DNA from: Arthrobacter sp. zg-Y20
GTDB taxonomy: Bacteria > Actinomycetota > Actinomycetes > Actinomycetales > Micrococcaceae
Reading direction: 5' to 3'
Assembly: GCF_030142075.1 (NCBI RefSeq)
Contig: NZ_CP126241.1
Span: 2,914,001 to 2,978,000, forward strand
DNA length: 64,000 nucleotides
Each line of letters opens with the position of its first letter. Within the stretch, counting starts at the first letter, position 1. The notes beneath the pieces were generated by a model. It was not told where the DNA came from, made no database searches, and was given only the letters and a program-made list of their open reading frames with translations. Below are positions 4,311-55,810 of the stretch, piece by piece. Made by a program: the position numbers and the translations under genes.

Positions 4311-5359
4311 GCGGACTGCCGGATGACCAGTTCCGGCGGGTAGATAGCCGGTTCCAGGCGCGAACCGGGCTCCTCGATTTCGCGCAGCAGCATTTCGGAG
4401 GCGCGCCGTGCCATCTCGACCATCGGGTTCACCACCGTGGTCAGCCCGGGCTTGCTCGAGGCGGCCAGCTGGTGGTTGTCATACCCCACCAGCGCCACGT
4501 CCCCGGGAACCGACAAGCCCCGCTCGCGCAGGACGGTCAGCACACCCAGGGCCATGAGGTCCGACGCCGCGAAGATGGCGTCAATCCCCGGATCGGCGTC
4601 CAGCAGCCGGGCCGCTGCCGCTGCGCCGCCTTCGGTGGTGAAGTGCCCGGACTCCGCGCCGGCAGAGACCAGCCCTGCCTCAGCGAGTCCGGCACGCCAG
4701 CCCTCCGTGCGGTCCTGCGCAGCGGTCATGTCCGCCGGTCCGGTCACCGTGGCGATCCGGCGGTAACCGCGGCCGGCAAGGTGCCGCGCCGCGAGCAGTC
4801 CGCCGGTGTAGTTGTCCGTATCCACGAACACCAGTCCCTGGCGGCCATGCCACGGCCGGCCGATGAACACGGCCGGCAGCGGCGCGTCCGCCAGTTCGAT
4901 TTCCAGGGCGTCCGCCTTGTGGTGCGAAACAACAATGGCCCCGTCCACGTGGCCGCTGCGCAGGTACCGGATGATCTGGCCCGCTTTCTCCCCCTGCCGG
5001 GCAATCAGCAGCACCAGCTGCACTTCGGTATCAGCCAGCGACTCGGTGATCCCATTGAGGGTCATGGCGAAGAAGGGATCCACCAGGACCCGGCCGTCCG
5101 GTTCGGGAATCACCAGGGCAATCGAGTCGGCACGGCTGGTGGCCAGCGACCGGGCTGCCCGGTTGGGGGTGAAGCCCAGCTCTCCGATAGCGGCGTCAAT
5201 GGCCGCCTGCGTCCGGGCACTGACCCGGGCCCCGCCGTTGATCGCCCGCGACACGGTGGAGCGGGAGACGCCGGAAAGCGCCGCCACATCTTCCAGTGTG
5301 GGACTGCTGCGGCGGGGCTTGACCTGCGTTCCGCGGGTGCCCTGGTTGAGGGAGCTCAC
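4307..5359 (-). CDS. cebR: LacI-family repressor, CebR-like
   Basis: LacI/GalR regulator of 350 residues. The N-terminal HTH reads PTLEDVAALSGVSRSTVSRAINGGARVSARTQAAIDAAIGELGFTPN, including the hinge region, followed by a periplasmic-binding-protein-like sensor domain ending in GYDNHQLAASSKPGLTTVVNP. I chose the GTG at 5359 because it overlaps the bgl stop as GTGA, implying translational coupling. It is the last gene of the cebE-cebF-cebG-bglC-cebR unit. The two TGGGAGCGCTCCCA palindromes before cebE equal the known CebR consensus of streptomycetes, where cellobiose or related oligosaccharides relieve repression; the ligand here is inferred from that match and from the beta-glucosidase neighbour. 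Confidence 0.85.
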   Translation of the reverse strand: MSSLNQGTRGTQVKPRRSSPTLEDVAALSGVSRSTVSRAINGGARVSARTQAAIDAAIGELGFTPNRAARSLATSRADSIALVIPEPDGRVLVDPFFAMTLNGITESLADTEVQLVLLIARQGEKAGQIIRYLRSGHVDGAIVVSHHKADALEIELADAPLPAVFIGRPWHGRQGLVFVDTDNYTGGLLAARHLAGRGYRRIATVTGPADMTAAQDRTEGWRAGLAEAGLVSAGAESGHFTTEGGAAAAARLLDADPGIDAIFAASDLMALGVLTVLRERGLSVPGDVALVGYDNHQLAASSKPGLTTVVNPMVEMARRASEMLLREIEEPGSRLEPAIYPPELVIRQSA

Positions 5360-19177: not shown

Positions 19178-19759
19178 TTATCCGATTGCGGCCCGTTCCC
19201 CCAGCCCCGCGGTGAACGCGGTGAGCAGGTCGCGGCCCTGTTCCCAGTAGCCCACGCCGCTCTTTTCGTTGATGTGCGCCAGCTCGCCGGCATTGATGAA
19301 CGGCAGTTTCCAGGCCGCTGCAATGACCTCTGCCGCCGGCAGCGCGCAGTACGGGTCGCTCTCACTGGCGATCAGCAGGCCCGGAACAGGCAGTTCCTGC
19401 AAGCGCGGGTTCCGGAACGTCCCGGCCGGCTGCGGGAAGGAGGCGGCTACGGGATCCGGCGGGCTGACCAGGAAGACCCCGCGGGCGCCGTCGGGGTTGC
19501 GCAGCAGCCATTCCGCCGCGGCCAGGCAGCCCAGGCTGTGGGCCACGAGCACGGTGTTCCCGTGCTGTGCCCCGGCGGCTTTGTCCAGCGCGGACATCCA
19601 GTCCTCCAGCTCCGGCTCGTCCCACGACGACGGCGCGATGCGGGTGACGTCCGGCAGGTCGGCTTCCCACCGGCTCTGCCACTGCTCCGGCGGTGAGCCC
19701 TGATAGCCCGGGACCAAGGTGATGTGCACTGTTCCTGCTTCCTTCCGCTGCGTTTCCAC
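19178..19759 (-). CDS. RBBP9/YdeN-family serine hydrolase
   Basis: Small alpha/beta hydrolase of 193 residues. The family signature VPGYQGSPPEQWQSRWE opens the protein, the nucleophile elbow is VAHSLGC, and the catalytic aspartate lies in IASESDPYC. The usual GHIN near the end is here AHIN, followed by GYWEQG. RBBP9/YdeN proteins are putative carboxylesterases of unknown physiological substrate. It lies 10 nt upstream of ligC and may be cotranscribed with it, with no obvious functional link. Divergent from the luciferase-like gene at 19824. Confidence 0.85.
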   Translation of the reverse strand: METQRKEAGTVHITLVPGYQGSPPEQWQSRWEADLPDVTRIAPSSWDEPELEDWMSALDKAAGAQHGNTVLVAHSLGCLAAAEWLLRNPDGARGVFLVSPPDPVAASFPQPAGTFRNPRLQELPVPGLLIASESDPYCALPAAEVIAAAWKLPFINAGELAHINEKSGVGYWEQGRDLLTAFTAGLGERAAIG

Positions 19760-19823
19760 GTGCCCGGCCCGGAAGTCCGGGGAGGACGGGAATACGGCCG
19801 AACCTTACGGCGCTGAGGCTGAT

Positions 19824-20843
19824 ATGAAACGAATAGGGTTCCTGTCCTTCGGACATTACCGGAATGCGCTCGGCTCACGGACCCCCAGCGCACGTGACGC
19901 ATTGCTGCAGCAGGTGGAGCTGGCCGTCGCAGCCGAGGAAATCGGCGTCGACGGCGCGTACCTGCGGGTGCACCACTTCGCCCCGCAGTTCTCCGCCCCC
20001 TTCCCGCTGCTCGCAGCCATGGCCGCGCGGACCAGCAGGATTGAGCTGGGCACCGGCGTGATCGACATGCGCTATATGAATCCTCTTTCAATGGCCGAGG
20101 ATGCCGCGGCCACGGACCTGATCAGCGGAGGCAGGCTGCAGCTGGGCATCAGCCGGGGATCCCCCGAGCCGGCCCTGCGCGGATATGAGTCCTTCGGTTA
20201 CGTGCCGGGGCCGGAATCCACCGACGCCGACATGGCCCGGCAGCACACCGAAGTGTTCCGGGCCGCGATTGCCGGTGCCGGCGTCGCCCAGGCGGATCCG
20301 GCCATGACCGGCAGCACCGGAGCCATGCCCATCGATCCGCTGTCCCCCGGCCTGCCCGAGCGCATCTGGTGGGGATCCGGCACCCGGGCCACAGCCAAGT
20401 GGACGGGCGAGCAGGGCATGAACCTGATGAGCTCCACCCTGCTGACCGAGGACACCGGTGTCCCGTTCGACCAGCTGCAGGCCGAGCAGATTGCCGTGTA
20501 CCGGCAGGCCTGGGCCGACGCCGGCCACCAGGGCACCCCGCGGGTCTCCGTCAGCCGCAGCATCATCCCGTTGGTCACCGGGGAGGACCGGCATTATTTC
20601 GGGCTCCGTGCGCAGGCCGAGGGACGGGACCAGGTGGGCCATCTCGACGGCGGTTTGGCGCGGTTCGGCAAGAGCTACATCGGCGAACCGGATGTCATCG
20701 CTGCTGAACTGGCCGCCGACGCCGCCGTGCAGGAAGCCGATACCGTGCTGATTACCGTGCCGAACCAGCTGGGCGTGGACTACAACGCGCAGCTGCTGGA
20801 AAGCGTCGTGAAGCTGGTGGCGCCGGGGGCCGGCTGGCGGTAA
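19824..20843 (+). CDS. LLM-class flavin-dependent oxidoreductase
   Basis: Luciferase-like monooxygenase of 339 residues with the bacterial luciferase TIM-barrel pattern: MKRIGFLSFGHY, EEIGVDGAYLRVHHFAPQFSAPFPLLAAMAARTSRIELGTGVIDMRYMNPLSMAEDAAATDLISGGRLQLGISRGSP, and a C-terminal IGEPDVIAAELAADAAVQEADTVLITVPNQLG. It uses reduced flavin (FMN or F420, not decidable from sequence). The start at 19824 has homology from the first residues. A structured repeat element begins 47 nt after its stop. Confidence 0.9.
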   Translation: MKRIGFLSFGHYRNALGSRTPSARDALLQQVELAVAAEEIGVDGAYLRVHHFAPQFSAPFPLLAAMAARTSRIELGTGVIDMRYMNPLSMAEDAAATDLISGGRLQLGISRGSPEPALRGYESFGYVPGPESTDADMARQHTEVFRAAIAGAGVAQADPAMTGSTGAMPIDPLSPGLPERIWWGSGTRATAKWTGEQGMNLMSSTLLTEDTGVPFDQLQAEQIAVYRQAWADAGHQGTPRVSVSRSIIPLVTGEDRHYFGLRAQAEGRDQVGHLDGGLARFGKSYIGEPDVIAAELAADAAVQEADTVLITVPNQLGVDYNAQLLESVVKLVAPGAGWR

Positions 20844-20890
20844 CTCTTTCGCTGGCTTTGACCGGCCTCGCTGGGAACGTGGGCACCTAC

Positions 20891-20969
20891 GGGGCCTGGC
20901 TCCGGCGGCAACGAAACTCCCCGCTCGCAGAACTCGCGGGAAGTATTAAAGCCGCCTCCGCCAGGCCCC
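20891..20969 (+). repeat. Structured dispersed element, copy 1
   Basis: A long imperfect palindrome. The outer arms GGGGCCTGGC / GCCAGGCCCC (20891-20900 / 20960-20969) are 10 bp perfect. They are followed by tcc/tcc, the invariant GGCGGC / GCCGCC (20904-20909 / 20951-20956) and a 6/6 loop AACGAA/ATTAAA. Next is a 9-position helix ACTCCCCGC / GCGGGAAGT (one mismatch) and an 11-nt loop TCGCAGAACTC. Two other copies in the window have the same 53-nt core geometry with different but pairing arms. It is intergenic, between the LLM gene and the sigma factor gene. Confidence 0.85.
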
Positions 20970-21074
20970 TTCGCATGTCCGTTGCCTATGCGCAGAGCGG
21001 GGCAGCGCACGTGTCGGGGAAAGTTGCGTGCACCGCCTGGTTACACTTTTGAGGCTGCCGGACATTAACAGGGC

Positions 21075-21599
21075 ATGAGTGTACAAAGCTTCCGGAAGGA
21101 ACAACGGGACGTGGACAGGGAGAAGTGTTTCCTGGCCGCCCACGCCGCCGGACATGACCGCATCTACCGCTACTTCCGGCGTCGAACCGAAAACGCCGCC
21201 ACCGCCGAGGACCTGTGCGCCGAGGTCTTTCGGATCGCCTGGGAAAAGACCGGGCAGGAGGAAAGCCTTTCGGTCATGGTGCTGTTCGGGATCGCGAAAA
21301 ACGTCCTCCGCAACCATGACCGGTCCGCTTCCCGGTCCGCGAGCCTCCTCGGAGCCCTCCAGCTGGAACGGGACCACGAGCGGAACGACGACGACTCCCG
21401 CATCCATGAGGCGCTCGCCCGGCTCGGGCCCGATGAGCGGGAGGTCCTCCTCCTGACGTACTGGGACGGTTTCAGTTCCAGCGAGGTCTCGGACCTGCTC
21501 AACACCAGCGCCACCGCCGTCAGGATGCGTTTGCACCGGGCACGCAAGGCGCTCGGCCGCCTGCTGGACACGGAATCACTTTCAGAAGGAGCGAAATGA
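21075..21599 (+). CDS. RNA polymerase sigma factor, ECF-like
   Basis: Sigma-70 family factor of 174 residues. Region 2 is seen as HDRIYRYFRRRTENAATAEDLCAEVFRIAWEK and region 4 as ALARLGPDEREVLLLTYWDGFSSSEVSDLLNTSATAVRMRLHRARKALGRLL, the promoter -10 and -35 recognition parts; there is no region 1.1 or 3. It overlaps the next gene by ATGA, a CU044_5270-type membrane protein that is regularly paired with such factors. An in-frame GTG at 21111, preceded by GGAAGGA, is an alternative start that would remove 12 residues. The two-gene module is flanked by structured repeat copies 1 and 3 in inverted orientation. Confidence 0.9.
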   Translation: MSVQSFRKEQRDVDREKCFLAAHAAGHDRIYRYFRRRTENAATAEDLCAEVFRIAWEKTGQEESLSVMVLFGIAKNVLRNHDRSASRSASLLGALQLERDHERNDDDSRIHEALARLGPDEREVLLLTYWDGFSSSEVSDLLNTSATAVRMRLHRARKALGRLLDTESLSEGAK

Positions 21600-22714
21600 T
21601 GAACAATGCCAATCTGCCCGTCGGCCTGGACCGCGCACTTGCTTCCGCTGACCCCGCACGCTCCGTTCACGAAAACGAACTGGCCGGCAGCCGCGCCAGG
21701 TCGCTCGCCGTGATGGACGCTCCGCAGGCGGCACAAAGCACTTCACCCTCCCGCCTGCACCCCGTTCCTCCGCTGAACGCCCGCCGCGCCGGAGGCCCGA
21801 GGACCACGCCGCCCCGCGCCCGACGCCGTCTCTTGCTTGCATCCGCCGCTGCAGCTCTGCTGGTGGGAGGCATAGTGGTGGCCGACGTCGTCCGGCCCGG
21901 CAGTCCCGGCGCCACCGCTGAGGCGGCAGAAGTCCTGAACGCCGCAGCCGACGCTACTATCCGCACCTCCGATCCCGTGGTGGGCCCCGGCCAGTACCTG
22001 AAAATCGACACAACCGAGCTGACCTGGGGCGGCAAGCAGATGGCTGACGGCAGCGACCTTTCCTGGCAGGAAACCGTCAGCGATCAGCTCTACATACCGG
22101 CAGACAGGAACGGTGAATGGGTCTGGGACCGCGGAGAGCGGATTCCCCTCGAGTCCTCGTCCGACGCCGCCAAGAAGGCGGCCGCCGAGATCGCCCAGCT
22201 GCCGCCGAAGGGTGGGGTGCCGAACCCGACGGTCGGAATCCAGCGCGGCCCGGGCGGAGCTTTCTACGGGCAGGCGCCGATGGTCATCATCGGCACCTCC
22301 CTCGACGAAGCCGGAAGCCTGCCCCGGGATCCCCGGGAACTGCTGGACCTCATTTACGAGCGCACCGAGGGAGCCGGCAAAACGCCGGAAACCGAGGCCT
22401 TTGTAACCATCGCTGACGGTTTGCGCACCGGGGCCGTCCCCGCCGACCTGCGCGCAACCATGTATCGGGCCGCTGCACTGATCCCCGGCGTGGTCATGAG
22501 CGACAAGCAGGCAACAGTGGACGGTAGGACAGGCATCGCCATCGGAATCCCCCACCCAGGAGGAACGTCGCGGACCGACATCATCATCGATCCTGACTCA
22601 GGCCTGGTCATCGGCGAACAGGACGTACTGCTGCAGGACTTCCCCAACGCTCCTGCCGGCACCGTTCAGGCATGGACTTCGGTTAGAACCTCCGTGGTGG
22701 ATTCCGCCCCGTAA
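21596..22714 (+). CDS. CU044_5270 family membrane protein, putative sigma-factor partner
   Basis: A 372-residue protein with a long cytosolic N-terminus rich in Pro/Arg (1-77), one transmembrane helix RRRLLLASAAAALLVGGIVVADVV (about 76-98) and a large outside domain. That domain has features of the CU044_5270 family, such as AAEVLNAAADATIRTSDPVVGPGQYLKI, a WVWDRGERI-like strand and a C-terminal GIPHPGGTSRTDIIIDPDSGLVIGEQDVL. Translational coupling with the sigma factor (ATGA) suggests that it acts as its anti-sigma or sensor partner; no zinc-binding HxxxCxxC motif is present, so the mechanism is open. Confidence 0.82.
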   Translation: MMNNANLPVGLDRALASADPARSVHENELAGSRARSLAVMDAPQAAQSTSPSRLHPVPPLNARRAGGPRTTPPRARRRLLLASAAAALLVGGIVVADVVRPGSPGATAEAAEVLNAAADATIRTSDPVVGPGQYLKIDTTELTWGGKQMADGSDLSWQETVSDQLYIPADRNGEWVWDRGERIPLESSSDAAKKAAAEIAQLPPKGGVPNPTVGIQRGPGGAFYGQAPMVIIGTSLDEAGSLPRDPRELLDLIYERTEGAGKTPETEAFVTIADGLRTGAVPADLRATMYRAAALIPGVVMSDKQATVDGRTGIAIGIPHPGGTSRTDIIIDPDSGLVIGEQDVLLQDFPNAPAGTVQAWTSVRTSVVDSAP

Positions 22715-22740
22715 AGCTCTCTCCGACGCCTTTCGGGGCG

Positions 22741-22893
22741 GGGCACCGGACGGGCCGGGGACTGGGGCACCGGACAGGCGGTGCGGCACCAGGGCCGGAC
22801 GGGCCGGGTTGGGCGGTGCGGCACCAGGGCACCGGACGGGCCGGGTTAGGCGCGGTGCGGCACCAGGGCACCGGACGGGCCGGGTTAGGCGGC
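22741..22893. repeat. Tandem GC-rich repeat array, about 5 copies
   Basis: Units of about 27-39 nt beginning at about 22741, 22765, 22792, 22827 and 22866, sharing the core GGGCACCGGACGGGCCGGG and the end CGGTGCGGCACCA. The last unit runs directly into structured element copy 3 and supplies one of its outer arms. It lies between the CU044_5270-type gene and the ORF at 23187. No gene is supported. Confidence 0.8.
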
Positions 22894-22951
22894 TTTATTA
22901 ACTTTCGCGAGCTCTGCGAGCGGAAGTTTTCGTTGCCGCCGTTCCGGCCCG
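22876..22951 (-). repeat. Structured dispersed element, copy 3 (minus strand)
   Basis: Read on the minus strand: outer arms CGGGCCGG / CCGGCCCG (8 bp perfect), then GGCGGC / GCCGCC, a 6/6 loop AACGAA/AATAAA, the helix AACTTCCGC / GCGAAAGTT (8 of 9 pairs) and the loop TCGCAGAGCTC. The core is 53 nt, exactly as in copies 1 and 2, yet both outer and inner helices have other sequences. It is oriented against both flanking genes. Confidence 0.85.
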
Positions 22952-23186
22952 CCCGGCGCCCCGCCGGGACCCGGCCCGGGACCCGAGAACAAGAGCCCCT
23001 GTCGAAATGTCGGCGCCCTCCGCTACAGTAGTTTTCAGCTTCACGAGATGTGGCCTTCGCCCGGTTCGCCGGGCATAAAAGCTCCGACTGGCCCCACACC
23101 AACCCCACTGTTCGGCGGGTGGTTCGGATGACGAAGCGGCCTGCTTCATCCGCTGCAGGCAAGGACAACCTGAAAAGGAACCCACT
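22952..23186. other. Non-coding leader region before the ORF at 23187
   Basis: GC-rich start followed by a more AT-rich part (TACAGTAGTTTTCAGCTTCA) that may hold the promoter of the next gene. Small inverted repeats such as GCCCGGTTCGCCGGGC are present. No ORF with coding features was seen. Confidence 0.4.
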
Positions 23187-23621
23187 GTGAGCATTTCCAG
23201 TGTCAGTAACTCCGGCTTCAACAACCCCGACTTCAGCAGTTCCTCCCCGAGCAACTGCACCGGTTTCGCTCCGGGCCACAACATCCATTGGATTCACGGC
23301 CGCCGGCTTCAGGGCTGGGAGCACTGGGCCGACGTCGCCGTCACCGCGGATCCGCAGCTGGACCTCATCTACCTGGTTATCGACGGGCAGCAGCAGTTGA
23401 TGTGGTTCCACAATGTCGGTGCGGTCGCAACCGCATTGGAAGCCGCCGTCGACACGCCTCAGTGGTGCCAGCGGTATTCCACGCTGATGGTGCCCGGCGG
23501 GTTTGGCTCCGAAGCCCGGAGCTCTTTTTTCTACTTGGCCCGGCCGGAGCGGGTACTGCCATGCAACGGCGCTCCGGTCCGGGCACCCGAAAATGAGCGG
23601 CTCGAGAAGCCCGGCTCCTAG
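23187..23621 (+). CDS. Hypothetical protein, unrecognised
   Basis: A 144-residue ORF starting with GTG and preceded by AAAAGGA. The first 27 residues are Ser/Asn-rich (SISSVSNSGFNNPDFSSSS), the rest looks globular: GHNIHWIHGRRLQGWEHWADVAVTADPQLDLIYLVIDGQQQLMWFHN, then YSTLMVPGGFGSEARSSFFYL. The many aromatic residues and the lack of charged repeats argue for a real soluble protein rather than a high-GC shadow, and its base composition is less GC-rich than the neighbours. No signal peptide, membrane segment or known domain is visible. Possibly recently acquired; function unknown. Confidence 0.6.
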   Translation: MSISSVSNSGFNNPDFSSSSPSNCTGFAPGHNIHWIHGRRLQGWEHWADVAVTADPQLDLIYLVIDGQQQLMWFHNVGAVATALEAAVDTPQWCQRYSTLMVPGGFGSEARSSFFYLARPERVLPCNGAPVRAPENERLEKPGS

Positions 23622-23686
23622 CTTGCGGACGGTAGCTGGCCGCAATTCGGAGCTGCGGGTGATTCGGCGGTCCTAGGCTCTGGGCC

Positions 23687-24121
23687 ATGACGAACATACA
23701 GATCTGCGTAGACTGCACCGATGCCCACGCTCAGGCCGATTGGTGGGCGGAAACCTTGGGCTGGACGTTGGAGCCCACGGACCAGGGCTTCATCTCGTCC
23801 TTGCTGGACCAGGGCTTCGCAAAACCCGAGGACGTGATTGAGCACAACGGTGTCCGGGTCTGGCGTGACGGCGCAGCTATCTGCCCTGCCGATCAGGTGG
23901 GACAGGAGGACCGGCTGCGCATCCTGTTCCAGCCCGTCCCCGAGCCCAAGACCGTCAAGGATCGAATCCACCTGGATGTGCGGCTGGAGGGCAGGGACAA
24001 GGACGAAGCCCGGGCCGCATTGGAAGGTCGAGGTGCATCCTTCCTGTACGAGGCCAGTCAGGGCCCGCACTCCTGGTACACGATGGCCGATCCCGAGGGC
24101 AACGAATTCTGCATCAGCTGA
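23687..24121 (+). CDS. VOC (glyoxalase/bleomycin resistance) family protein
   Basis: A 144-residue protein with the two-module beta-alpha-beta-beta-beta pattern of the VOC superfamily: IQICVDCTDAHAQADWWAETLGW in the first half, and DRIHLDVRLEGRDKDEARAALEGRGASFLYEASQGPHSWYTMADPEGNEFCIS in the second. The ending DPEGNEFC is the usual family tail. The first-strand metal ligand is not an obvious His, as in many glyoxalase-like proteins of unknown substrate. Monocistronic; a long inverted repeat follows. Confidence 0.85.
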   Translation: MTNIQICVDCTDAHAQADWWAETLGWTLEPTDQGFISSLLDQGFAKPEDVIEHNGVRVWRDGAAICPADQVGQEDRLRILFQPVPEPKTVKDRIHLDVRLEGRDKDEARAALEGRGASFLYEASQGPHSWYTMADPEGNEFCIS

Positions 24122-24140
24122 CGCGCACCTGCTCTTCCAG

Positions 24141-24197
24141 CTTCTGTACAGCTGATGCGGCGTGGAAGGGCCAATACCCGCATCAGCTGTACAGAAG
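24141..24197. terminator. Perfect 20-bp inverted repeat, probable bidirectional terminator
   Basis: CTTCTGTACAGCTGATGCGG (24141-24160) and its exact reverse complement (24178-24197) enclose a 17-nt loop. It lies between the convergent VOC gene and CPBP protease gene, so termination in both directions is plausible. There is no T-tract. The 3' end of the VOC gene itself contains a third copy of GCATCAGCTG (24112-24121). Confidence 0.6.
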
Positions 24198-24231
24198 GCG
24201 TCCGCGGAACCCCCAAAACGGCCGTGAGACC

Positions 24232-45909: not shown

Positions 45910-46045
45910 CCCTTCCCGCAGCGGGTTCAGTGCAGGGGTGGTCACACGGCTTCAGTGCCCGCGTAGCGTTAGGTATTCTCCCGGAAGCGCGGCGCTGCCC
46001 GCAGTCGCCTCCGGAGACGCCGTTTCCGCCGCGAAGGGGATCACC

Positions 46046-47545
46046 ATGGCCTCACTTCTTCCTAACCGCCGACGCCAAAACCATCAGGGGCAACTGACAG
46101 AACCGGTGAATGATTTCACCTTCCCGGCTCCCCCGCCGCATCCGCCGTCGCAGAATCTGCCGAAGGGTATGGATAACAGCAATGCCCTGGACAGCAACGC
46201 TCTGGACAGCGCTGCCGCAGCCGGAGGCCCCTCACGGAACGAGGAAGAAGTATTGGCCTTGTGGTTCCGGAAAGGAGTCCTGGGACTTACTGCTTGGCTG
46301 GCCGCCGGGGCCAGGGGGGTGGGCCGGTGGCTCCTCGCCGGAGCACGGGGACTCCAGGCGTGGCTCCGCATCGGGTTGCACATAGCGGCGCTTCGGCTGC
46401 GCGCAGGTGCCGAGCGGGCCCAAGCAGGCGCCCGCACCGGAGCACACCGAGTACAGACAGGCGCCCAAACTACCTCACGCCACATTCACGCCGGGGCACA
46501 CGCAGCATCCCTGCGCATCCAAGCCGGCGCCCACGCCACCACCAACACAGCCCGCGCCGGAGCACACCGAGTCCAATCCGGTGCCCAAACCACCTCACGC
46601 CACATCCACGCCGGCGCACACGCAGCATCCCTGCGCATCCAAGCCGGCGCCCACGCCACCACCCGCACCGCCCGCGCCGGAGCACACCGAGTCCAATCCG
46701 GCGCCCAAACTACCTCACGCCACATCCACGCCGGCGCACACGCAGCATCCCTGCGCATCCAAGCCGGCGCCCACGCCACCACCCGCACAGCCCGCGCCGG
46801 AGCACACCGAGTCCAGGTCAGCGCCCAAACCACCTCGCGCCACATCCACGCCGGCGCACACGCAGCATCCCTGCGCATCCAAGCCGGCGCCCACGCCACC
46901 ACCAACACAGCCCGCGCCGGCGCCCACCAGGTCCAGACCGGTGCCCGGACCGCTGCTGCTCAGACGCGGGCCGCGGCCCGGTGGATGCGAAAAAAGCTCC
47001 CCTCTGCCACGGGCAACCCGGCGCCCTTCATCGCAATTTCCTGTACTTGTGTTGCCGGTGCCGGCGCGCTCAACCTCGGTGACACCTTCTCAGCGGTTTC
47101 CCGCCTTCCCGTGCCGGAGTCCCTGCCGGGGGTGCTGTCCATCCTCGAACGGTTCGGCGTCAACGGTTCGCAGTACGTCAGGGCCGTGGCGATCGTGGAA
47201 GTGGCCTACGCCCTGGTGTTCTTCGGCGTCGCGCTCCTGCTTGCCGTCTGCATTTGGGAAAAACGCCGCTGGGCCCAGGTGACGGCGGCCGTACTGGCAG
47301 TCGCAGCTCTGGCGTACGCCATCCCGGCGGGCACAGGCGTTCAGACGGCCGCCGCAGCAGCCGCCGCCCTGGGGGCTGGCTTGACCTTCACCAAGGGCGC
47401 GGCTCCATGGTTCCGTTCCCCGCGCCGCAGCGCCGCACAGGTCGACGCGCAGCAGGACTACACCGCAGGTCACGGAATGGATAACCCGGAGCCCGGCGTC
47501 GTATCTCCGGGCCGGACAGAGCCGGCCCGCCCGGACGCTGTTTAG
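46046..47545 (+). CDS. Repeat-rich membrane protein with 40-residue (11-mer based) repeats
   Basis: A 499-residue protein starting at 46046 (AAGGGG 7 nt upstream). Layout: Pro-rich polar N-terminus (1-65), an amphipathic stretch (LALWFRKGVLGLTAWLAAGARGVGRWLLAGARGLQAWL, about 74-112), four near-identical 40-residue repeats and a partial fifth (about 132-300), then three to four membrane helices (about 331-350, 375-410 and 415-440) and a polar tail. Each 40-residue unit parses as 11+11+11+7 residues, ending in AGA/TGA: for instance QTTSRHIHAGA, HAASLRIQAGA, HATTNTARAGA. Eleven-residue periodicity is known from amphipathic, membrane- or stress-related helices such as group 3 LEA proteins. I do not recognise a family. 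Convergent with rex, sharing stop bases. Confidence 0.75.
   Translation: MASLLPNRRRQNHQGQLTEPVNDFTFPAPPPHPPSQNLPKGMDNSNALDSNALDSAAAAGGPSRNEEEVLALWFRKGVLGLTAWLAAGARGVGRWLLAGARGLQAWLRIGLHIAALRLRAGAERAQAGARTGAHRVQTGAQTTSRHIHAGAHAASLRIQAGAHATTNTARAGAHRVQSGAQTTSRHIHAGAHAASLRIQAGAHATTRTARAGAHRVQSGAQTTSRHIHAGAHAASLRIQAGAHATTRTARAGAHRVQVSAQTTSRHIHAGAHAASLRIQAGAHATTNTARAGAHQVQTGARTAAAQTRAAARWMRKKLPSATGNPAPFIAISCTCVAGAGALNLGDTFSAVSRLPVPESLPGVLSILERFGVNGSQYVRAVAIVEVAYALVFFGVALLLAVCIWEKRRWAQVTAAVLAVAALAYAIPAGTGVQTAAAAAAALGAGLTFTKGAAPWFRSPRRSAAQVDAQQDYTAGHGMDNPEPGVVSPGRTEPARPDAV
46441..46950 (+). repeat. Four 120-bp tandem repeats plus a partial fifth
   Basis: Period is exactly 120 bp: 46441-46560, 46561-46680, 46681-46800, 46801-46920 and a fading copy to about 46950. 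Copies differ at only a few positions, so duplication is recent or kept uniform by recombination. All six reading frames are largely free of stops across the array because of the low-A/T codon set. Confidence 0.97.
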
Positions 47546-54940: not shown

Positions 54941-55601
54941 CAGACCTCCACACAACGCCCCGGTACTGGTGATCGGCCTGGGCCGCTTCGGTGCCGCTAC
55001 CGCCGAACAGCTGGTCCGGCAGGGACGCGAAGTCCTGGCCGTGGAACGCGACCCCGCGCTGGTGCAGAAAGCCTCCGGCATCCTCACCCACGTGGTGCAG
55101 GCCGACGCCACCAACATCGAGGCGCTCAAGCAGCTGGGCGCCGAGGACTTCTCCGCCGCCGTCGTGGGCGTGGGCACCTCCATCGAGTCCAGCGTGCTGA
55201 TCACCGTGAACCTCGTGGACCTGGGCATCGAGCACCTCTGGGTTAAAGCCATCACTCCGGCGCACGGCAAGATCCTTACCCGGATCGGCGCCAACCACGT
55301 CATCTACCCGGAGGCCGACGCCGGCCGCCGCGCAGCACACCTGGTGGGCGGCCGGATGCTGGACTTCATTGAATTCGACGACGGCTTCGCCATCGTGAAA
55401 ATGTACCCGCCCAAGGAGACGCAGGGCTTCACCCTGGGCGAGGCCAATGTACGGGCGAAGTACGGAGTGACCGTGGTAGGCGTGAAGTCGCCGGGCGAGG
55501 ACTTCACCTACGCCCAGCCGGACACCAAAGTCTCCAGCCGGGACACCCTGATCGTGGCCGGGCACGTCGATCTGCTCGAGCGGTTCGCGGCACGGCCGTA
55601 G
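54933..55601 (+). CDS. trkA: TrkA-type potassium channel regulatory subunit
   Basis: Cytosolic RCK/TrkA regulator of 222 residues. The N-terminal RCK_N domain has VLVIGLGRFGAATAEQLVRQGREVLAVERDP (dinucleotide binding) and VQADATNIEALKQLGAEDF. The TrkA_C domain begins at about residue 145 with QGFTLGEANVRAKYGVTVVGVKS and ends in DTLIVAGHVDLLERF. The TTG start at 54933 is chosen from AAAGG 8 nt upstream and its overlap with trkH. Together with TrkH it forms a nucleotide-gated K+ uptake system. Tandem repeats begin 20 nt after its stop. Confidence 0.93.
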   Translation: MADRPPHNAPVLVIGLGRFGAATAEQLVRQGREVLAVERDPALVQKASGILTHVVQADATNIEALKQLGAEDFSAAVVGVGTSIESSVLITVNLVDLGIEHLWVKAITPAHGKILTRIGANHVIYPEADAGRRAAHLVGGRMLDFIEFDDGFAIVKMYPPKETQGFTLGEANVRAKYGVTVVGVKSPGEDFTYAQPDTKVSSRDTLIVAGHVDLLERFAARP

Positions 55602-55620: not shown

Positions 55621-55740
55621 GGCTTGGTTCGGCTCCCGCCTTCGGGCGTGGCGCCGGTTCAGCTCCCGCCTTCGGGCGTGGCTCCGGCTCGGCTACCGGC
55701 TTCGGGCGTGGCTCCGGCTCGGCTACCGCCTTCGGGCGTG
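55621..55740. repeat. Four 30-bp tandem repeats beside element copy 2
   Basis: Exact 30-bp period (55621, 55651, 55681, 55711), each ending in CTTCGGGCGTG; a fifth start GCTCCGGC at 55741 leads straight into the GGCGGC of structured element copy 2. Between trkA and proC; no gene is supported on either strand. Confidence 0.9.
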
Positions 55741-55810
55741 GCTCCGGCGGCAACGAAATTCCTCGCTCGCAGAGCTCGCTTGGAATATTAAAGCCGCCTC
55801 CGCCACACCC
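55734..55810 (+). repeat. Structured dispersed element, copy 2
   Basis: Outer arms GGG-GTGGC / GCCAC-CCC (one mismatch) around tcc/tcc, then the invariant GGCGGC / GCCGCC (55746-55751 / 55793-55798) and a 6/6 loop AACGAA/ATTAAA. These enclose the helix ATTCCTCGC / GCTTGGAAT (7 of 9 pairs) and the loop TCGCAGAGCTC. Core 53 nt, as in copies 1 and 3. Compared with copy 1 the outer and inner arms are changed on both sides so that pairing is kept. Confidence 0.85.

Follow-up and report, generated by a model that had tools for sequence, protein, structure and literature searches.

The REP and BIME sequences of Escherichia coli and its relatives are dispersed extragenic hairpins, found often after genes and inside operons and in both orientations; E. 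coli has BIMEs that bind gyrase. REPs are shorter than the element considered here, carry a conserved foot (GTAG-type) beside the hairpin, and go with Y1 (RAYT) transposases. Long irregular hairpins with an internal loop also lie between cistrons as RNase III signals, for example in the early region of phage T7. The accessible text of PMC2267715 counts 92 stem-loop repeat families in 40 genomes, and the word Arthrobacter is absent from its main text.

The element described here is a hairpin family in some members of the Micrococcaceae. The family is real, its spread is REP-like, its placement resembles that of message ends and intercistronic boundaries, and it has no match in Rfam; it is apparently under selection. 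It adds a repeat family in which the stems drift and the loop is fixed, within highly conserved actinobacterial operons. Literature searches, confined mostly to papers outside subscription, returned no description of this element, and none stands in the accessible parts of PMC12306157, PMC2267715, and PMC3820800.

The Three Copies in the Window

The window (the whole stretch of 64,000 nt that was analysed) contains three copies, whose parts and immediate neighbours are as follows.

19719..20843, + strand: host gene of copy 1, luciferase-like monooxygenase (PF00296, E 6.6e-30); open reading frame, true start uncertain
20891..20969, + strand: copy 1; outer stem GGGGCCTGGC/GCCAGGCCCC, TCC/TCC loop
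20904-20909 and 20951-20956, + strand: lower stem of copy 1, GGCGGC/GCCGCC
20910-20915 and 20945-20950, + strand: internal-loop strands of copy 1, AACGAA and ATTAAA
20916-20944, + strand: inner stem and tip of copy 1
22778..22891, - strand: 39-bp unit present three times; extends into copy 3, whose 3' outer arm it includes
22871..22956, - strand: copy 3; outer stem of 13 bp (one G.T), AAC/TAAC loop, AATAAA replacing ATTAAA in the core
54969..55601, + strand: host gene of copy 2, TrkA-like (PF02254, E 5.8e-24); true start perhaps further upstream
55629..55748, + strand: 30-bp unit present four times; extends into copy 2, whose 5' outer arm it includes
55734..55810, + strand: copy 2; outer stem GGGCGTGGC/GCCACACCC with one C.A mismatch, core as in copy 1

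The original prediction, made from the window alone, had placed copies at 20891-20969 (+), 55734-55810 (+), and 22876-22951 (-), which was confirmed for place and strand; its 9-position arms, with 8, 7, and 8 of 9 positions paired, were correct on a recount by eye. Of the outer arms, which it described as different and as pairing perfectly or nearly so, that of copy 2 is longer than it gave and those of copy 3 span 13 bp, which puts the hairpin of copy 3 at 22871-22956. The pattern AACGAA-N9-TCGCAGARCTC, with up to three mismatches, matches the window at exactly the three copies (shuffled sequences give a mean of 0.15, and 0/100 reach three). All three are recovered (E 7e-15 to 4e-14) by the covariance model R2, which has no window copy in its training set, and up to E 5 this model has no further match in the window. 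The sense-strand RNA of each is predicted to fold into one long hairpin, with folding z-scores of -6.4, -3.4, and -6.3 for copies 1, 2, and 3.

Copy 1 starts 47 nt past the stop of the luciferase-like monooxygenase gene and copy 2 starts 132 nt past that of the TrkA-like gene, each on the strand of its host gene. Copy 3 lies 156 nt past a + strand gene (stop at 22714) in the opposite orientation, upstream of a SAM-IV aptamer, and is an exception to the sense 3'-end placement described below. By eye, no T-run directly follows any of the three hairpins; a terminator scan of 19700-24200, which covers copies 1 and 3, found one site at the elements, inside copy 3.

The SAM-IV riboswitch lies at 23039-23171 (+), and also at 4358-4490 of locus L101, just 5' of a small open reading frame (23187-23621) that has no Pfam match; the aptamer and the adjoining antisense hairpin copy are both also present in genome G007. 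Elsewhere in the window, 46430-46946 (+) holds a 120-bp unit repeated 4.3 times with 92% matches, within an open frame (45938-47545) that likewise has no Pfam match. In G000, copies 1 and 3 enclose (window 21075-22714, +) a Sigma-70-like gene (PF08281) and one more gene, for which Pfam gave no match; in G007 these two genes are not between its two matching copies, both of which lie in one intergenic region. No claim is made for a mobile cassette bounded by the inverted copies (window 20891/22951), because the G007 pair lacks the two intervening genes and some other pairs of copies come from convergent genes with a copy each (e.g., L107 and L108).

Anatomy and Covariation

The hairpin is about 77-95 nt in size (~85 letters). 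From the outside inward it consists of a variable outer stem, a small asymmetric loop, a lower stem, a fixed internal loop (AACG/AAA), two A-U pairs with a bulged A, an inner stem, and a changeable tip; this anatomy is kept across genera, where the loop letters are nearly invariant. The outer stem, of roughly 9-16 bp, differs from locus to locus and is common within subfamilies. The loop between it and the lower stem is 2x4 or 3x4, or 3x3 in the type to which window copies 1 and 2 belong. The lower stem is mostly GGCGGC/GCCGCC, with GGGCC/GGCCC, GCGGCC/GGCCGC, GGCGC/GCGCC, and GACGGC/GCCGTC as other forms. A K-turn reading of the internal loop was dropped in favour of the two A-U pairs plus bulge, which fit better, because the outer A-U pair beside the bulge becomes U-A in a few copies by correlated change (AACGAT with AATAAA) and the pyrH copies lack the bulged A; two copies combine AACGAA with AATAAA, at odds with that pair.

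Most copies have GCTCGCAGAGCTCGC as the tip, and others have GGCCG-loop-CGGCC or a CTCGTTCCTC-like sequence; all three types occur in genome G081, at three loci. A tip of the kind CTCGCTTCAGCTCGC replaces CTCGCAGAGCTCGC at L160 (G004), L136 14130-14223 (G007), L344 (G011), and L361 (G027), and at L346 (G011:C10:76966-77065) the tip is tandemly expanded by repetition of GAGTTCGCA, which is consistent with slippage at the hairpin. Seven genomes contain the 14-nt tip 38 times, 36 times in full copies and twice in loop-less palindromes of G201. These two palindromes (L214 938-1017 and L213 3096-3175, on the small contigs C19 and C20) have neither strand of the fixed loop, and L214 carries a resolvase gene and a helix-turn-helix gene. 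The copy behind a fadJ-like gene in two genomes (G005 and G024) is without loop and tip.

Two covariance models were used to search for copies. R1 was built from 49 copies (alignment A1), including the three in the window; A1 began with 59 copies, of which 50 remained after removal of near-identical ones, L005 was left out, and L040 is cut by a contig end. R2 was built from 24 copies of the common register, 22 from other genera and two from the window's own genome outside the window. For covariation, alignment A3 comprises 40 rows (a diversity sample of parsed copies plus L205, L207, and L212), and A4 comprises 24 rows of the common outer register, with other registers left out; 23 of these are among the 40 of A3, and one is from the same place with one more base.

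In A4, 93.1% of cells are paired, vs. 70.4% after shuffling and at most 48% with slid partners; two-sided changes occur in 20/24 pairs, and 0/500 shuffles reach any of five measures. The outer-stem figure of A4 is favoured, because its rows were selected for the common outer register. For the core alone, in all 40 rows of A3, 96.7% of cells are paired (85.7% shuffled, at most 50% slid), with two-sided changes in 9/13 pairs and again 0/500 shuffles. Among 88 distinct copies, outer arms score 11.0 with their own partners and 5.0 with swapped ones; these outer-arm counts, like the G.T and A.C mismatch counts below, omit 17 of the 134 copies in the study set (13 unparsable by loop anchors and four too low-scoring) and count near-identical arms once.

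These significant covarying pairs and the conserved loop letters bear out the original prediction that paired positions vary and unpaired positions are conserved. The check that it had proposed, a covariance-model search of Micrococcaceae genomes, gave many copies with significant covarying pairs, nearly all intergenic; neither of the outcomes that it had named as refutation, an absence of covariation or copies that are all identical, came about.

Distribution

The window's own genome has 11 copies by R1 and 10 by R2. With R1 the element is present in 29/29 genomes of the genus, at 2-21 copies each, and in 29/197 genomes of the family (7/32 genera), with fewer copies in some other genera. R2 finds it in 34/197 family genomes (9/32 genera), some by weak matches only, and the element is thus dispensable in the family, since 163/197 genomes have no copy by this model. 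Five genomes in an order-wide sample of 297 match, all Micrococcaceae and none outside the family. A strict core scan of named genomes gave 39 stretches, all in Arthrobacter-titled records, which include A. citreus (Micrococcaceae according to NCBI), A. luteolus, A. gandavensis, A. mobilis, and A. hankyongi. The study set of 134 copies was taken from the R1 match lists (E 0.01) and covers 29 genomes; 12 of these, with 94 copies, belong to the window's genus, and the remaining 17, with 40 copies, to other genera; a few of its weakest copies are degenerate or doubtful.

A phage, plasmid, or viral origin was considered and rejected, as the core query had no match in plasmid, phage, and viral contig collections. 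At gathering score, SAM-IV is the sole Rfam match in the window, away from the elements, and L101 and L245 give just one more SAM-IV match, in L101 and likewise away from any element; L106, L176, and L187, scanned up to E 5, have five weak matches, all of them outside the elements. No known Rfam RNA thus matches the elements in the scanned sequences, in agreement with the original prediction, which had recognised no known family.

Placement Relative to Genes

Genes were called by simple codon usage, which makes starts unreliable and may have missed small genes. Two of the 134 copies lie inside a called gene. The 5' neighbour is on the same strand for 112 copies and ends at most 150 nt upstream for 103, and the median distance from stop codon to model start is 29 nt. 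A stop codon faces the copy within 150 nt in 113/134 cases, the closest being sense in 93 and antisense in 20. When copies were grouped by host gene (48 groups, 132 copies; two copies without a host gene were left out), 35 groups were all sense, seven all antisense, and six mixed (p 7.5e-6 for 35 vs. 7). Thirty-four copies are flanked by a pair of co-directional genes, the first ending at most 150 nt before the copy and the second beginning at most 200 nt after it.

Pfam confirmed rpoB-rpoC (L118), dnaK-grpE-dnaJ (L183), and gyrB-gyrA (L188) at one locus each; at L119 it identified an amino-acid-kinase gene, taken as pyrH, before frr. Of the 12 copies in the grpE group, from 12 genomes, 11 are sense and one is antisense; in the rpoB group, 20 genomes contribute 20 copies, 15 of them sense and five antisense (G024, G087, G201, G213, and G233). 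Outer arms are similar between G213 and G106, which suggests that the rpoB-rpoC hairpin was turned in place. Among the best 30 matching rpoB-rpoC loci from 61 genomes, 28 had a readable gap (L242 and L243 were dropped), and inspection by eye found the element in six, an unrelated GC-rich hairpin in 16, and neither in six; by these counts the element is one version of a common rpoB-rpoC hairpin. The gap of L228 (G078) has a long hairpin with similar lower-stem flanks (GGGAC-GGCG ... CGCC-TTCC), a different interior, and neither AACGAA nor ATTAAA, and is possibly a second hairpin family.

Retention and Unit of Spread

All 76 R2 copies were compared in two pairs of close genomes (G011 and G027; G008 and G026). 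All 18 copies of G027 share the upstream flank with a copy of G011, and 16 share both flanks. Identities by part were counted at 15/16, 14/15, 14/17, and 17/17 loci over four genome pairs, with unparsed loci skipped; the rpoB group was excluded, as exchange of its copies between species seems to have occurred, the rpoB-rpoC allele of G011 resembling that of G026 and the allele of G027 that of G008.

Between G011 and G008 (15 loci) the two strands of the loop are 100 and 99% identical, those of the lower stem 97 and 98%, the inner stem 100 and 91%, and the outer stem 88 and 93%, and the next 40 nt outside the hairpin are 62 and 65% identical with gaps allowed. Between G027 and G026 (14 loci) the corresponding values are 99 and 96% (loop), 100 and 96% (lower), 99 and 84% (inner), and 89 and 90% (outer), with 61 and 70% in the next 40 nt, gaps again allowed. 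The closer pairs G011-G027 and G008-G026 are 91-100% identical in all parts and 77-82% in the next 40 nt. Within the core, the 3' strand of the inner stem is the least conserved part in these comparisons. Between the two pairs, identity in the mostly coding upstream flank is about 86-98%; the hairpin thus changes about as slowly as coding DNA in close surroundings that are scrambled, so that selection seems to keep the orthologous copies.

Copies within one genome were compared in six genomes; the set of G004 includes one tandem pair with more shared flank. Counted in 6-nt bins outward from AACGAA/ATTAAA, identity is 0.40-0.86 in the fourth bin, falls to 0.21-0.42 in the fifth and sixth on both sides, at the hairpin base, and is near background beyond, which indicates that the hairpin is the unit that spread. 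The one absent site that was examined is an apparent loss with arm remains and not a clean empty site.

RNA or DNA Level

In the outer stems of the 88 distinct copies, G.T mismatches number 44 and A.C mismatches 39, among related copies in which single positions recur. Next to the loop the counts (G.T/A.C) are 6/22 in 8 bp, 23/22 in 10 bp, and 37/33 over 16 bp; counted as distinct events they are 41/36 in the outer stem, 6/8 in the inner stem, and 28/35 by subfamily, and A4 has 13 G.T and 9 A.C overall. Control hairpins, found with an equal penalty for the two mismatches, gave 60 G.T and 22 A.C in 69 hairpins at 444 ordinary gene ends of the same genomes, and 14 and 2 in 25 hairpins upstream of genes. 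The difference between 60/22 and 44/39 has a Fisher p of 0.0097, on small counts and related copies. Pairing in the element accordingly has no visible sense-RNA signature, as G.T is about as frequent as A.C, unlike in ordinary 3'-end hairpins, and the mismatch counts lean away from a simple RNA constraint. The antisense strand is also predicted to fold more stably in 104/117 distinct copies. The sense bias and 3'-end placement, on the other hand, point toward the RNA level.

Covariation by itself does not separate RNA from DNA, and here the expected G-U excess is missing. The original prediction of a structured RNA or a palindrome recognised by its fold is thus upheld as to covariation and fixed unpaired letters; the mismatches give no sense-RNA signature, and the palindrome option stands.

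Models for the Function of the Hairpin

The best explanation, which has about an even chance of being right, is that the element is a REP-like dispersed hairpin that would act as an mRNA 3'-end or intercistronic boundary and be read through its fixed loop; fold, covariation, placement, sense bias, retention, and the hairpin-sized unit of spread are observed, and action as RNA is presumed. Transcription would put the hairpin at the start of the 3' untranslated or intercistronic RNA, where it would fold and mark or protect the end of the upstream message either as a barrier to 3'-5' decay or as a cleavage point between cistrons. A putative host protein would read the constant internal loop (AACG facing AAA, the two A-U pairs, and the bulged A), and the stems would merely hold that loop. 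This explanation is weakened by the inverted rpoB-rpoC copies (5/20), which would show the loop to an RNA reader as its reverse complement, by copy 3, which is away from a sense 3' end, by the 20/113 stop-facing copies that are closest to an antisense stop, by the missing G-U excess, by the more stable predicted fold of the antisense strand, and by the 163/197 family genomes that have no copy by R2. A palindrome recognised as DNA is a serious rival.

An unlikely form of that rival is a REP-like mobile DNA palindrome, in which an enzyme acting in trans would recognise the folded single strand by its fixed unpaired letters and copy the hairpin; the sites after genes would be tolerated or targeted insertions, and any host role secondary. 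The drop of within-genome identity at the hairpin base on both sides in six genomes, pairing that is strand-symmetric where that of the ordinary hairpins is not, inverted copies with similar outer arms at one site, and the loop-less palindromes of G201, which share the 14-nt tip and sit on two small contigs, one of them bearing a resolvase gene, all agree with it. Against it, the Y1 transposase domain PF01797 was found in 0/29 genus genomes at E 0.001 (a control search found it in 5/14 well-known genomes), the core query has no match in the plasmid, phage, and viral collections, and there is little recent movement, given the 18/18 copies of G027 that share upstream flanks with G011 and the apparent loss at the absent site; orthologous copies that change far more slowly than their close surroundings are unexpected for a decaying selfish insert.

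Quite unlikely is a site behind transcribed genes at which a nucleoid, topoisomerase, or recombination protein would bind duplex DNA, much as gyrase binds BIMEs in E. coli. Strand-symmetric mismatches, inverted copies at one site, and locations behind core genes such as rpoB, gyrB, and grpE suit such a site, but the fixed letters are those that are unpaired in the fold and the stems are free to change, which a reader of duplex DNA does not require, and the sense bias is strong.

That the element is an intrinsic transcription terminator that happened to be duplicated is improbable. It is a stable hairpin close behind stop codons, and unrelated hairpins occupy the same rpoB-rpoC gap in other genomes; however, the window hairpins lack a T-run, 34/134 copies lie between co-directional genes, rpoB-rpoC included, and the fixed internal loop would be left unexplained. 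It is most improbable that the covariation is mutational, with the arms of the palindrome held identical by template switching and the fold free of selection. Such switching is described in yeast, at imperfect inverted repeats (accessible text of PMC3820800), and agrees with the single arms repeated in tandem next to copies 2 and 3 and with the strand-symmetric mismatches. It would also remove the non-complementary loop, but few parts are as well conserved as this loop across genera and between orthologues; template switching may still contribute to the outer arms.

A doubtful but more specific proposal is that a dedicated RNA- or hairpin-binding protein of these Micrococcaceae reads one fixed loop (AACG/AAA plus the bulged A), held by stems that are free to change, and that this protein thereby defines the 3' boundary of core messages in large number (those of rpoB, gyrB, grpE, and pyrH and dozens of others), as a tagging system common to several genera. 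Such a reader, if found, would explain the separation of the rpoB and rpoC messages in these high-GC bacteria, and the hairpin would provide a portable 3'-end part.

Comparison with Known Systems

Integron attC sites are defined by a complementary core box; an attC-like reading of the element was dropped on this definition, since the element opposes AAC to AAA and shows no such box. Pairs of DUS or USS sequences that double as terminators are also repeated inverted sequences behind genes (the DUS case is in the accessible text of PMC2267715), but the stems of the element contain no short constant word, and its outer stems differ from locus to locus. The ERIC, BOX, and SLS families, as far as the same text describes them, are likewise intergenic repeats with a common predicted fold, whereas the element combines compensatory variation in its stems with a loop that is fixed in several genera. 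The likeness to RNase III signals is one of predicted form: the element, too, is long and irregularly paired, has an internal loop, and occurs between cistrons. Membership of the RAYT/REP system was rejected, there being no Y1 transposase match in the 29 genus genomes, and in the six genomes compared no conserved foot accompanies the hairpin, identity being near background outside its base. As with REP and BIME sequences, the element is a dispersed extragenic palindrome that lies after genes and within operons in both orientations; it differs from them in its unit of about 77-95 nt without a fixed flank and in its conserved internal loop.
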